From NCBI RefSeq assembly GCF_001579845.1, contig NZ_CP007440.1:5540029-5604028 (forward strand): a DNA stretch of 64,000 bases, written 5' to 3'. The stretch's first letter is position 1, and each line of letters starts with the position of its first letter. The position numbers were made by a program, and so were the translations under genes. This DNA is from Rhodoplanes sp. Z2-YC6860. GTDB taxonomy: Bacteria > Pseudomonadota > Alphaproteobacteria > Rhizobiales > Xanthobacteraceae. Below the pieces are notes generated by a model that was given only the letters and a program-made list of their open reading frames with translations, made no database searches and was not told the DNA's origin. Shown here piece by piece: positions 1,773-17,710 of the stretch.

Positions 1773-2045
1773 ATGAACGCTGACCTGACACGAGGCGAAC
1801 GTCTGCAAATCATGCTTTCGCCTGAGGAATTGGCGGCGGTGGATGACTTCCGCTTCAAACAGCGAATGCCGAGCCGGGCTGCCGCGGTCCGCGAGCTGTT
1901 TCGACTTGGACTGGCTGCCGTCGGCATCAAGCCAGCTGAGCAGGGAACCAAGTCGAGCGATTACGGCGTGTTCGCGACCGGACCGGACGGTTCGCAAAAG
2001 GGCAGCGACAGCCAGCCGTCGGGCGGCAACGGCAAGAAGCGCTAG
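1773..2045 (+). CDS. RHH-like small DNA-binding protein candidate
   Basis: A 90-residue protein. Residues 8-50 (GERLQIMLSPEELAAVDDFR, then RMPSRAAAVRELFRLGLA) follow the beta-helix-helix pattern of ribbon-helix-helix regulators: a short strand with alternating polar residues, then an SRAxAVRELxRxGL helix pair. The C-terminal 35 residues are Ser/Gly/Lys-rich and look disordered. The ATG at 1773 follows purine-rich stretches (AAGGAG and AAGGGG). It is a lone gene, and no antitoxin or toxin partner is adjacent. A role as a small transcriptional regulator is an inference from the fold pattern. Confidence 0.65.
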   Translation: MNADLTRGERLQIMLSPEELAAVDDFRFKQRMPSRAAAVRELFRLGLAAVGIKPAEQGTKSSDYGVFATGPDGSQKGSDSQPSGGNGKKR

Positions 2046-3019
2046 TTCAATTCGATCTTGGCGGCCGCGACCGCGCGCTTGAAGCGCGCGAGCTCACGGG
2101 CGATCTCGGCCTTGAAGGCCTCGGGCGAATTGCCGACGATGATCGCCTGCTGCGAGGCGAGCCGCTCGCGCATCTCCGGTGTCGCCAACGCCTGTTTCAG
2201 CGCCGTGTTCAAGCGCTGCACGATGGGTACGGGCGTTCCCTTCGGCGCGATCAAGCCGAAGAACGCCATCCAATTGGCCTCTTCGATACCGAGCTCGCCA
2301 AAGGTCGGTGTGTCCGGCAAGGCCTCGACGCGCTTGTCGCCCGAGATCGCCATGGCGTGCAGCCGGCCGCCGTTCACGAGTTCGAGCGAGGTCGGTAGGT
2401 TGTCGAATACCACCTGCACCTGACCCGCGACCGCGCCGTTCAGCGCAGGCCCCATGCCGCGATAAGGCACATGGACGAGATCGGCGCCGGTCGCGAGCTT
2501 GAACTGCTCGCCGAGCAGATGCGAGACGGAGCCATGGCCCGAAGAGCCATAGGCGAATTGACCAGGCTTCGACTTGGCGAGCGCGATGAAGGCGCGGAGG
2601 TCCTTGGCCGGCACGCTCGGGCTGAGCGACATGATGTTCGGCACCGCCGCGATGTTGCCGATCGGCGTGAGGTCCGTCAGCACGTCGAACGGCAGGGTCT
2701 TGTAGGTCGCGGGATTGATCGCGAGCGTCGACGCCGTGCCCATGCCGATGGTGTAGCCGTCGGGCACGGCTTTCGCGATCGCGCCGGTGCCGATCGAACC
2801 GCCGGCGCCGGCGCGGTTGTCGGCTACGACCGACTGGCCGAGCACCTGGCGCAGGCCTTCGGCGACAAGCCTCCCGATCACGTCGGTCGAGCCGCCGGCC
2901 GCGAACGGGATGATCAGGGTGATCGGCCGGTTCGGATAAGCGTCATCGGCAAAGGCATTTGATGGAAGTGTCGTCGTTGCCAAAATGATCGCAGCAACGA
3001 AACACCCAACCGTCCTCAT
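2042..3019 (-). CDS. Bug-family TTT solute-binding protein (3rd of array)
   Basis: A 325-residue periplasmic binding protein of the Bug/TctC family. These capture small carboxylates or related organic ligands for tripartite tricarboxylate transporters. After a signal peptide (MRTVGCFVAAIILATTTLPS, cleavage near NAFA) come the Bug hallmarks: YPNRPITLIIPFAAGGSTDV at the mature N-terminus, then GAGGSIGTGAIAKAVPDGYT and HVPYRGMGPALN. The frame stays open upstream to 3199, but those residues are translated palindromic repeat. The ATG at 3019 gives normal family length and a signal peptide, and it lies inside the repeat arm. The gene is last in a minus-strand array with two other Bug genes and four hydrolases. 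The ligand is unknown, and no TctA/TctB membrane genes are in the window. Confidence 0.85.
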   Translation of the reverse strand: MRTVGCFVAAIILATTTLPSNAFADDAYPNRPITLIIPFAAGGSTDVIGRLVAEGLRQVLGQSVVADNRAGAGGSIGTGAIAKAVPDGYTIGMGTASTLAINPATYKTLPFDVLTDLTPIGNIAAVPNIMSLSPSVPAKDLRAFIALAKSKPGQFAYGSSGHGSVSHLLGEQFKLATGADLVHVPYRGMGPALNGAVAGQVQVVFDNLPTSLELVNGGRLHAMAISGDKRVEALPDTPTFGELGIEEANWMAFFGLIAPKGTPVPIVQRLNTALKQALATPEMRERLASQQAIIVGNSPEAFKAEIARELARFKRAVAAAKIELN

Positions 3020-3114
3020 CCTGAGGAGCCAGCCAGAGGCTGGCGTCTCGAAGGATGGGGACGCCACCGACCGGGCCGCACTCTCCTTCGCTCGGCTGCT
3101 CAGGATGAGGGCGG
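3014..3114. repeat. REP-like bipartite palindrome, family 1 (copy a)
   Basis: The left half reads CCTCATCCTGAGGAGC, then the small hairpin cagcc-agag-gctgg, then GCGTCTCGAAGGATG. After a short spacer (gccaccgaccgggcc), a degenerate inverted right half ends CTCAGGATGAGG. The left arm contains the start codon of the Bug gene ending at 2042. Similar elements occur at 4129-4175 with 4467-4550, 9452-9565, 17585-17710 and 20291-20410. Confidence 0.8.
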
Positions 3115-3153
3115 AGAGAAAGCGTGGCGTGACGAGGCGGAAATCCATCACCG

Positions 3154-4134
3154 TCATTTGGCCTTGAACGTCGAGATCCGCTCGATCACCGGCTTCCACA
3201 AGGTCTGCTCGGTTTCAATGTACTGCTTCAGCTCGGCCGGCGACATCGGGTTGATGTAGCTTGCGATATCCTCGAAGCGCTTTTTCATCGCGGGATCGGC
3301 CAGCACGGTCCGCAGGTCCTCGCTGACCTTCTTTGCAATCGGTTCGGGCGTGCCGGGCGGGCCCATCAGAGCGAAAAAGCCGAGCGCACGCGGAATGCCC
3401 GGCAGCGTCTCGGAGATGGTCGGGGTGTCGGGCCGGTTCGGCAGGCGCTTCTGCGAGCCGACCGCGAGGAGCTTGAGCTGTCCGCCGTTGATCGCACCGG
3501 CGAGACTCGGCAACCCGTCCATGATCACCTGCACGCGACCGCCCATCACGTCCGACAGCCCTGCCGGCGTGCCTGGATAGTTGATCGAGGTCCATTCGAG
3601 GCCGGCCGCAAGCTTGATCCATTCAGAGGTGAGATGCGGAATGCCGCCGCGGCTCAGAACCGCGACGTTGACCTCGCCCGGCCGCTTCTTGGTGTATTCG
3701 ATCAGTTCGCCGAGCGTGTTGATGCCAAGTGTGGTCGGCACCGCGATCGCCATCGGCTGCTCGCAGACGAAACCGATCGCAACGAAGTCGCGCACCAGGT
3801 CATAGGGATAGTCCTTGGCGATTTCCGGCAGCGCAACGAAGCTCGACGAGAGCGCGAACAGCAGCGTGTAGCCGTCCGGCGGTGACGTGCCCGCGACCTT
3901 CATGCCGATCGAACCCGCGGCGCCCGGATGGTTGGTGACGAACACCTGCTGGCCCCAATGCTTCGACAGCCCTTCCGCCACGATCCGCGCGGTGACATCC
4001 GGCGCCCCGCCCGCGCCGGTGGTGACGACGAGCCGCACGGGCGCGGTGGGGTAGTTCTGCGCATTGACGGGAGCGCCGTTGAACAACAGCACCGCAGCCA
4101 GCATCGCCACGGCGAAGACCCCAACCGTCCTCAT
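3154..4134 (-). CDS. Bug-family TTT solute-binding protein (2nd of array)
   Basis: A 326-residue exported binding protein of the Bug/TctC family. The signal peptide is MRTVGVFAVAMLAAVLLFNG with cleavage after VNAQ. The mature start is NYPTAPVRLVVTTGAGGAPD, followed by HPGAAGSIGMKVAGTSPPDG and the usual PTISETLPGIP and GPPGTPEPIAKKV segments. The ATG at 4134 lies in a REP arm and overlaps the stop of the GIY-YIG gene (ATGA, 4131-4134). The open frame continues to 4251, but that part is repeat sequence. It is closely related to the Bug protein at 4565-5548 (same KRPGEVNVA.. and RPMSxxEL regions), so the pair probably arose by duplication. The ligand is unknown. Confidence 0.85.
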   Translation of the reverse strand: MRTVGVFAVAMLAAVLLFNGAPVNAQNYPTAPVRLVVTTGAGGAPDVTARIVAEGLSKHWGQQVFVTNHPGAAGSIGMKVAGTSPPDGYTLLFALSSSFVALPEIAKDYPYDLVRDFVAIGFVCEQPMAIAVPTTLGINTLGELIEYTKKRPGEVNVAVLSRGGIPHLTSEWIKLAAGLEWTSINYPGTPAGLSDVMGGRVQVIMDGLPSLAGAINGGQLKLLAVGSQKRLPNRPDTPTISETLPGIPRALGFFALMGPPGTPEPIAKKVSEDLRTVLADPAMKKRFEDIASYINPMSPAELKQYIETEQTLWKPVIERISTFKAK

Positions 4135-4175
4135 CCTGAGGAGCGCGGCGAAGCCGCGCGTCTCGAAGGATGGGG
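4129..4175. repeat. REP-like half element, left half (copy b)
   Basis: CCTCATCCTGAGGAGC, hairpin gcggc-gaa-gccgc, GCGTCTCGAAGGATG. This is the left half of a family 1 element. Its matching right half is at 4467-4550, and the intervening spacer holds the GIY-YIG gene. The element encodes the nuclease C-terminal tail and stop and the start codon of the next Bug gene. Confidence 0.8.
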
Positions 4176-4460
4176 ACGCCCCCGGCGTGCCAACAGCTTG
4201 AGGCGATCCCAATCGCCGCGAATGAGCGCTTCCTTCTTGGCGCGTGTCCATCCCTTGACCTGTCTTTCCGTTTCTATGGCATCGGTGATTGATTCGAAGT
4301 GTTGAGAGAAGATCAACGCGACCGGTCGCCGCGTCGCAGTGTAGCCACCGAACAGTCCGGCATTGTGTTGCGCGACACGCACCTCAAGATCAGCGCGTGT
4401 CGTGCCGACGTAGTAGCTGCTGTCGGAACAGCGCAGTATGTAAAGGTAAGCACCGGTCAC
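4131..4460 (-). CDS. GIY-YIG nuclease family protein inside a REP element
   Basis: A 109-residue single-domain GIY-YIG protein of the UPF0213/YhbQ type. The signature reads AYLYILRCSDSSYYVGTT (residues 4-21, with YIL for YIG and YVG), followed by a conserved Arg in VRVAQHNAG. The catalytic Glu is expected in the AIETERQVKGWTRAKKEALI segment. The GTG at 4460 is preferred because GAGG lies seven bases upstream and family members begin just before the first strand. An upstream open frame (to 4568) is translated repeat. The last roughly 19 residues (RRGRPHPSRRAASPRSSG) are encoded by the left repeat half. It sits between two Bug genes on the same strand, and its stop overlaps the next start. A role in moving or repairing the surrounding repeat is an inference. 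Confidence 0.8.
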   Translation of the reverse strand: MTGAYLYILRCSDSSYYVGTTRADLEVRVAQHNAGLFGGYTATRRPVALIFSQHFESITDAIETERQVKGWTRAKKEALIRGDWDRLKLLARRGRPHPSRRAASPRSSG

Positions 4461-4466
4461 GGGCCG

Positions 4467-4550
4467 CCCTCGTGCTTCGAGACGCATCGCCATAGCGCGT
4501 CGAAGACGCGCGTAAACACGCTTATGGCGATGCTCCTCAGCATGAGGGCG
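4467..4550. repeat. REP-like half element, right half (copy c)
   Basis: Reads CCCTCGTGCTTCGAGACGC, then an extended imperfect stem (gcatcgccata ... tatggcgatgc), then CTCCTCAGCATGAGGG. This is the inverted right half matching 4129-4175. Both halves of the element flank the GIY-YIG coding sequence. Confidence 0.75.
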
Positions 4551-4564
4551 GGGAGACAGCGGCG

Positions 4565-9451: not shown

Positions 9452-9565
9452 CCTCATGCTGAGGAGCCGCGTAAAGCGCGGCGTCTCGAAGCACGAGGCC
9501 GCCACCGACCGGGCCACCTCGTCCTTCGAGACGCACGGCTTCGCCGTGCTCCTCAGGATGAGGTG
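9452..9565. repeat. REP-like bipartite palindrome, family 1 (copy d)
   Basis: This is the cleanest complete copy. Left half: CCTCATGCTGAGGAGC, ccgcg-taaa-gcgcgg, CGTCTCGAAGCACGAGG. The spacer is ccgccaccgaccgggcca. Right half: CCTCGTCCTTCGAGACGC, hairpin acgg-ctt-cgccgt, GCTCCTCAGGATGAGG. It lies between the hydrolase array and the marR stop and could act as a transcription attenuator. Confidence 0.85.
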
Positions 9566-17584: not shown

Positions 17585-17710
17585 CCTCATGGTGAGGAGC
17601 ATTGCGAAGCAATGCGTCTCGAACCATGGGGCCGCCCGGCCGTTGCAACAGCGAGGCCGCCTCGCCCTTCGAGACGCGGTCCGCCGGACCGCTCCTCAGG
17701 GTGAGGCGGG
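17585..17710. repeat. REP-like bipartite palindrome, family 1 (copy f)
   Basis: CCTCATGGTGAGGAGC, hairpin attgc-gaa-gcaat, GCGTCTCGAACCATG; a spacer with cggccgttgcaacagc; then CGCCCTTCGAGACGCGG, a gtccg-ccggac stem and GCTCCTCAGGGTGAGG. Complete, both halves present. It fills most of the gap between two convergently oriented genes. Confidence 0.85.

Follow-up and report, generated by a model that had tools for sequence, protein, structure and literature searches.

The question raised by this locus is whether a small GIY-YIG nuclease gene and the dispersed repeat whose hairpins enclose it belong to one mobile system. The locus was examined in a stretch of 64 kb (positions 5540029-5604028), referred to here as the window, of the Rhodoplanes sp. 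Z2-YC6860 genome, which consists of a single contig of 8.19 Mb. The features discussed are collected in Table 1. An earlier note, made from the sequence alone, had placed the gene between the left half and the inverted right half of a repeat whose short copies hold only a spacer. This anatomy was borne out, the right half was found on inspection to be inverted relative to the left, and the enclosure of the nuclease gene by two inverted hairpins of the short-element family is confirmed. The last codons and the TGA stop of the gene lie inside the left hairpin, and its conserved core spans 4182-4460. Folded as single-stranded DNA, the left hairpin (4125-4176, + strand) reached -19.3 kcal/mol with a z-score of -4.8, and the right hairpin (4464-4551, - strand) reached -34.5 kcal/mol with a z-score of -7.8, with 0 of 200 shuffles as good in either case; z-scores of the four window hairpins ranged from -3.8 to -7.8, each folding better than all 200 of its own shuffles. 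The nuclease stop overlaps the likely start of the neighboring TctC gene as ATGA (4131-4134), inside the left hairpin. For another TctC paralogue (ORF 2042-3199) the start (MRTVG..) likewise seems to lie within a repeat (3014-3056), and these apparent starts of TctC-type genes in repeats suggest that the repeat may supply start codons.

Table 1. Positions of the nuclease gene, the hairpins and the neighboring features in the window.
Feature	Position	Strand	Description
Further doublet	3014..3110		Left hairpin 3018-3056 recognised; right half consists of a degenerate core (3095-3110) only
TctC receptor gene	3154..4134	-	PF03401, 164.7 bits; likely ATG at 4132-4134 (start codon inferred)
Left hairpin (REP)	4126..4178, core 4133-4171	+	CCTC tag, arm ATCCT/AGGAT, GAG..CGA core, 7-bp outer stem
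GIY-YIG nuclease gene	4131..4460	-	GTG start at 4460, TGA stop at 4131-4133; 109 aa + stop (translation)
Right hairpin (REP)	4465..4550, core 4472-4543	-	Inverted relative to the left hairpin; long inner hairpin
Short doublet (REPIN), same family	9452..9563		+/- plan; spacer 26 nt
Short doublet (REPIN), same family	17585..17706		+/- plan; spacer 36 nt

The hairpins of the family follow one plan, namely a CCTC tag, a five-base arm, GAG, a variable inner hairpin, CGA and the complementary arm; beyond the arms, seven further base pairs form between the outer sequence and the inner edge. The core CTCATNNTGAGGAGC is present in 77 copies genome-wide (39 forward and 38 reverse), and the reversed pattern gave 0 matches. 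Doublets were inspected at 44 sites, made up of 40 of the 46 clusters of core matches outside the window and 4 window sites, and a doublet with a spacer of 11-39 nt was recognised automatically at 30 of them. The family thus has the features of REPINs, being composed of inverted REP doublets that form hairpins and are dispersed in high copy. Pairing was measured in 71 hairpins of this genome kept by a filter (flanks ending TC, cores starting GAGGA). Outer positions 5 and 6 paired with inner positions 5 and 6 in 92% and 86% of the hairpins, compared with 54% and 51% in shuffled sets (0/2000), while position 7 paired in 89%, compared with 84% (85/2000), and pairing ended beyond position 7. The tag CCTC was present in 70 of the 71, its last two bases being forced by the filter and its first two being free.

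The resemblance between the edges of the nuclease gene and those of the short spacers, which had been taken in the earlier note as a sign that the short elements are internally deleted nuclease elements, does exist; however, the inner edge is the 3' strand of the extended hairpin stem, which explains why the gene edge resembles the spacer edges. An internal-deletion origin is not supported: the 30 spacers of the own genome were read, 10 of them are exactly 11 nt long, and the inner edges are paired stem (as in the 71 hairpins). In genus g22, a stretch like CCCGGACGA.CATCC was noticed by eye both in short spacers and at the 3' edge of the nuclease L039, which would keep a common origin of the inner edges open in that genus.

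The window protein matched PF01541 at 63.3 bits (cut-off 22.6) and no second Pfam domain, and so consists of one small domain; it belongs to the GIY-YIG superfamily, having passed the curated cut-off and carrying two Tyr, Arg and Glu. NCBIfam gave no match for it. In an alignment of 108 nuclease copies, Y7, Y17, G19, R28, H32 and E65 were conserved in at least 98%, and Y7, Y17, R28 and E65 are taken by us to be the catalytic residues. An internal stop was found in 4 of the 108 copies (L011, L029, L083 and L116; the stop of L041 precedes the match and was not counted). For the 6 closest pairs, with dS 0.10-0.51, the dN/dS ratio was 0.08-0.17; three of these pairs are the ones that L056, L057 and L058 form with one another and are hence not independent. 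Over all 301 pairs with dS 0.05-1, near-saturated and doubtful pairs included, the median ratio was 0.46. Two nuclease copies, L038 (G146) and G102:C1:4286208, lie within unusually long open frames of 477 and 495 codons. An AlphaFold2 model of the window nuclease (pLDDT 92.7, pTM 0.82) was compared with solved structures, and the UPF0213 proteins 1zg2 and 1ywl were the sole PDB sequence matches at E <=1 as well as the sole fold matches at E <=0.001. These are structural-genomics NMR structures named solely UPF0213, which share size and fold with the window nuclease and are 34-38% identical to it in the fold alignment. The next fold matches were to Slx1 (E 0.004-0.02), a nuclease of branched DNA, and a group I intron endonuclease model gave weak matches in 6 of 39 relatives (best E 0.00056). 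Given the single small domain and these nearest structures, the description of the enzyme as homing-type in the earlier note is doubtful.

Relatives of the nuclease core protein (E 1e-18 or better) were found in 82 of 296 genomes of the family, distributed over 23 of 47 genera, and also in Sphingomonadales, Methylobacterium, Thiobacillus, Polaromonas, Chloroflexi, Planctomycetota, Anaeromyxobacter and others (of the 124 loci found, 80 were retained). The surroundings of 108 loci whose flanks reached 150 bases or more were surveyed, L012, L046, L056 and L115 being left out as too short. A loose hairpin definition was used, in which GAG and CGA were fixed and the five-base arms were complementary with at most 1 mismatch. 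Under this definition a hairpin was located within 250 bp on at least one side in all 108 loci and on both sides in 92. For the control comparison the duplicates L040 and L045 were also removed, and the remaining 106 loci were set against 1398 control positions in the same loci. Hairpins lay on both sides in 90 of the 106 nuclease loci and at 110 of the 1398 control positions, and in inverted order in 81 and 48, respectively, so that flanking by two halves holds for relatives as well as for the copy described in the earlier note. The nearest upstream hairpin was + in 74 loci and - in 21, and the nearest downstream hairpin was - in 80 and + in 21. The nuclease-hairpin pairing is a general, oriented association across several phyla, not a local accident.

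The arms differ by clade (ATCCT/AGGAT, ATGGT/ACCAT, GTCCT/AGGAC, GCCCT/AGGGC, GGTTC/GAACC and GTCCC/GGGAC). Because arm complementarity was built into the search, only the diversity of the arms is informative, the unforced covariation being that of the outer and inner stem positions; together these point to a folded strand as the form that would be recognised. On a tree of the 108 nucleases, 103 of them labelled by hairpin type and five rows unlabelled, hairpin type changed 17 times, compared with a shuffled mean of 46.3 (0/200 as low), in a tree of a short protein with 49 of 104 inner branches open and some labels that are chance hairpins. L039, for instance, carries the label GAGC despite a GAGGTG hairpin upstream of it, and the type was equal on both sides in only 59 of the 81 loci typed on both sides. 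Of two hairpins typed after other clades, one folded with a z-score of -4.9 (0/200 shuffles as good) and the GAGGTG type with a z-score of -1.4 (20/200 as good).

An order-wide survey comprised 27 small GIY-YIG loci (22 from other genomes and 5 from the own genome) and 4 uvrC genes, four short ones having been dropped; at most one match per genome and six own-genome loci were taken, and GIY-YIG subfamilies were pooled. Inverted palindromes enclosed 15 of the 27 small loci, compared with 2 of 93 control windows and 0 of 4 uvrC genes, and GTCAT, a mark of CGTC-type repeats, was present in 8 of the 15 palindrome matches listed. The own genome has five other small GIY-YIG genes, and four of them (L003, L004, L005 and L006) were also seen between inverted palindromes, which belong to other families (CGTCAT..CCGGGC types, a GTGTCCCGGG type and one resembling GTGATTCCGGGG); the fifth, L002, does not lie between inverted palindromes.

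Repeat number was assessed by counting two exact hairpin patterns in the 296 family genomes, with reversed-pattern controls that were zero in every genome; genomes with merely a weaker or partial nuclease match (e.g. G008) were counted as without nuclease. The uncorrected median was 27 repeats in the 82 genomes with the nuclease, compared with 3.5 in the 214 without it, zero repeats were counted in 0/82 and 81/214, respectively, and a within-genus permutation of labels on the uncorrected counts reached the observed value in 0 of 5000 trials. Since the nuclease's own flanking hairpins enter these counts, 4 repeats were subtracted per nuclease copy, after which the median was 22.5, compared with 3.5 (one-sided Mann-Whitney p 1e-14). 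At least 10 repeats were present in 64/82 genomes with the nuclease (corrected) and in 73/214 without it, and none in 6/82 (corrected) and 81/214. The expectation in the earlier note that the repeat should be scarcer without the nuclease is thus borne out by the medians, but not by the 73 nuclease-free genomes with at least 10 repeats; these, together with the six nuclease genomes with none, indicate that repeats persist alone or that another enzyme moves them. For G295, with 266 repeats and no nuclease detected, the absence of the gene is unsure because this genome is 91% complete with 8% contamination.

Filled and empty sites, a comparison proposed in the earlier note, were found between two collinear genomes of different species, G267 and G287 (93% identical), which were compared over two regions (280 and 154.5 kb of G267) and in which whole doublets are present in one and absent from the other. 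Of the 32 hairpin clusters of G287, 14 were shared with G267, 15 were unaligned and 3 were partial; 12 of the 15 unaligned clusters are '+-' doublets of 98-101 bp, whereas only 6-8% of the compared G287 sequence is unaligned in G267. One of the 15 (set A, 180538) lies in a 2-kb block left unaligned by chaining though seemingly homologous, and since G267 has a broken repeat start there, it represents a decayed copy and no clean absence. The 18 hairpin clusters of G267 comprised 13 shared with G287, 1 partial and 4 unaligned, the last consisting of one doublet and of three clusters that belong to a single nuclease element. Site A of G287 was tested in 29 other genomes, two of which are without one flank; the doublet was missing in 26 of the 27 with both flanks, and the 27th, G210, has hairpins in another order. 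For site B both flanks were found in only 2 of 29 other genomes, and the doublet was missing from both. Among the BLAST matches listed, most copies of the site A doublet start at query positions 579-593 and end at 690-708, a few extending further, and by these ends the doublet behaves like a self-contained unit. The orthologous site of the L039 nuclease element is without the element in G287 and in 17 other genomes, with no tblastn match in any of them, and some genomes lacking it there have nuclease copies elsewhere. By parsimony, the site A doublet and the L039 nuclease element look like recent gains.

As the unaligned blocks are usually longer than the doublet, exact insertion joints are not legible. 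No consistent duplication or motif was seen by eye at the 19 unaligned clusters displayed, and a 4-base overlap was noted at one unaligned site (set B, G287 position 94764). At several sites the intergenic gap that contains a GAG/CGA doublet in G287 is occupied in the alternative allele by a doublet from a different palindrome family, which could mean hot-spot turnover by recombination. In G287 and G267 both palindrome families appear as if they used common hot spots. In the joined G267 stretch (G267:C1 from 2195000), two GAG/CGA repeats near 174320 and 204018 break off after CCTGAG and continue into GTCTGACTCGTAA-like sequence and then a CGTC-type doublet, as if a CGTC-type element had inserted into them. 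In genus g1 the nuclease seems, by eye, to keep its place (L001 and L010 lie beside a TctC-like gene), and the window copy itself may therefore not move. Plasmid records were considered as a source of empty sites; 16 match, all at less than 60% identity, and were not useful.

The analogy to RAYT transposases and REP sequences drawn in the earlier note stands. The REPIN/RAYT (REPtron) systems (Bertels and Rainey 2011, PMC3116915; Corneloup et al. 2021, PMC8266576) resemble the window family in their short palindromes, inverted doublets and high copy number (PMC3116915), and the gene of the partner enzyme is flanked by palindromes in REPtrons (PMC3733652), as is the window nuclease. One TnpA-REP enzyme group requires a bulged hairpin and a conserved neighboring motif (PMC8266576), and such hairpins, together with enzyme groups that have co-evolved with their REPs (PMC3116915, PMC8266576), have their like in the GIY-YIG family. 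In contrast, RAYT systems employ an HuH tyrosine transposase and a GTAG tag, whereas the window family has a GIY-YIG nuclease, from which no strand-transfer chemistry is expected, and a CCTC tag. The gene between the hairpins matches PF01541 only and the GTAG tag is lacking, which sets the locus apart from RAYT-type REPtrons and RAYT-type REPs.

A second comparison is with the CGTC REPs of Di Nocera et al. 2013 (PMC3733652), which occur mostly in alphaproteobacteria, carry a CGTC, TGTC or, often, CCTC tag, start their stems with AT positions and mostly form head-to-head dimers; CGTC-1 of Neisseriae is dRS3, and odd loops were noted for CGTC-1 of Bradyrhizobium. The tag, the AT stem start and the head-to-head dimers are shared with the window family, the first stem pair being A-T in 48 of the 71 filtered hairpins. 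The CGTC REPs, however, have a plain 8-9 bp stem and a 4-5 nt loop, whereas the hairpins of the window family are built from a 5-bp arm and a GAG..CGA core around a variable inner hairpin, and stem, loop and CCA-like tail do not agree. According to that paper, CGTC repeats are not associated with transposase genes, and tyrosine transposases are present in many CGTC-positive species, yet in none is such a gene flanked by CGTC sequences (PMC3733652). This lack of an associated transposase, together with the small GIY-YIG genes between GTCAT palindromes, makes a GIY-YIG nuclease a candidate partner for the CGTC class.

Among the papers listed in the literature searches, none is about this pairing of nuclease and repeat, judged by title and start of the abstract, and a term search of the 2006 GIY-YIG survey (PMC1564403) did not find 'palindrom'. 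Five literal repeat strings had no match in the literature text searched. Chenal et al. are said to have described in 2025, in Nature Communications, the Ssn enzymes, GIY-YIG nucleases specific for single-stranded DNA that have repeated cognate sequences, the NTS repeats of Neisseria. The sequence is reportedly repeated hundreds of times, thousands of Ssn homologues are said to have sequences of their own, and Ssn reportedly cleaves single-stranded DNA site-specifically at its cognate repeat. The window system is like this one in combining a small GIY-YIG nuclease with an abundant repeat, and the 2025 work probably describes the wider kind to which it belongs. The novelty is therefore smaller than first supposed: of the possibly novel mobile repeat system announced in the earlier note, what is new here is that the gene lies within an inverted doublet of its own, that the hairpins are of the GAG/CGA class and that turnover is seen at species level, since a pairing of GIY-YIG nuclease and repeat was reportedly published for Neisseria in 2025.

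The evidence suggests that the nuclease and the scattered repeat form one mobile system. It is judged moderately probable that the window locus is a gene-bearing copy of a REPIN-like family in which a cognate GIY-YIG nuclease replaces the RAYT, cuts the folded hairpin and leaves host repair to spread the doublet. The repeat unit would consist of two inverted hairpins, with the nuclease between them in the gene-bearing copy and only a spacer in the short copies (~100-130 bp). Most likely the nuclease would recognise its cognate hairpin in folded, single-stranded form (arm - GAG - loop - CGA - arm'), which it would cut while the DNA is single-stranded, in replication or DNA uptake, after which host repair would copy or move the doublet. 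GIY-YIG enzymes cleave DNA by hydrolysis and are not known to have a strand-joining activity, for which reason integration would fall to host repair; that the nuclease cuts the hairpin, and that cutting drives the spread of the repeat, we infer. Association, orientation, co-occurrence with repeat number, clustering on the tree, covariation of the stem outside the motif searched for, low dN/dS in the closest pairs and turnover of doublets count in favor of a mobile system, and the internal stops in 4/108 copies, the equal hairpin type in only 59/81 loci and the GAGGTG fold matched by 20/200 shuffles count against it.

In the main rival account the nuclease has a regulatory task on the chromosome: it would control DNA uptake or recombination and cut single-stranded DNA at cognate repeats, as in the Ssn/NTS model reported for Neisseria, and the repeats, as its target sites, would be spread by recombination and selection and not by the nuclease. 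We consider this account rather unlikely, although it agrees with a small single-domain GIY-YIG enzyme accompanied by abundant palindromes, with the low dN/dS of close nuclease pairs, with a gene that seems, by eye, fixed in place in genus g1, and with the 15/27 small GIY-YIG loci between inverted palindromes (2/93 controls, 0/4 uvrC). Gain and loss of uniformly sized doublets between species, and a nuclease element that itself looks gained at L039, are not predicted by a pure target-site model. A regulatory or target-site role is compatible with mobilisation, and both could be true.

That a RAYT/TnpA-REP or another transposase encoded elsewhere moves the doublets, with the GIY-YIG gene as a passenger, would fit the REPIN-like anatomy (PMC3116915) and the tyrosine transposases present in many CGTC-positive species (PMC3733652). 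This is improbable, because a passenger would not be flanked by its own hairpin class in several phyla, with types clustered on the nuclease tree, and no tyrosine transposase gene flanked by CGTC sequences was found in the survey of CGTC repeats (PMC3733652). Chance enclosure, by which many genes would fall between two repeats where these are dense, has in its favor that the loose definition is often matched within these loci, at 1.57 hairpins per kb farther than 250 bp from the nuclease; their density of 7.37 per kb within 250 bp, and the inverted order in 81/106 loci as opposed to 48/1398 control positions, refute it, and it is hardly credible.

The reading of the locus as a gene-bearing copy of a nuclease-mobilised family bears on a wider class. 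Many bacteria commonly have REP-like repeats between their genes, and the 2013 survey left the CGTC class without a transposase (PMC3733652); the widespread, oriented association with a small GIY-YIG nuclease offers a candidate enzyme for such repeats. It is proposed tentatively, as a possibility short of probable, that many RAYT-less REP-like palindromes, including the CGTC repeats, are mobilised by small GIY-YIG nucleases through a hydrolytic cut of the single-stranded hairpin and insertion by host repair, and would form a transposase-free class with an autonomous gene-bearing form in many phyla. If it is true that the nuclease drives the spread of its repeat, DNA elements would be dispersible by hydrolytic cutting and host repair, without a transposase.
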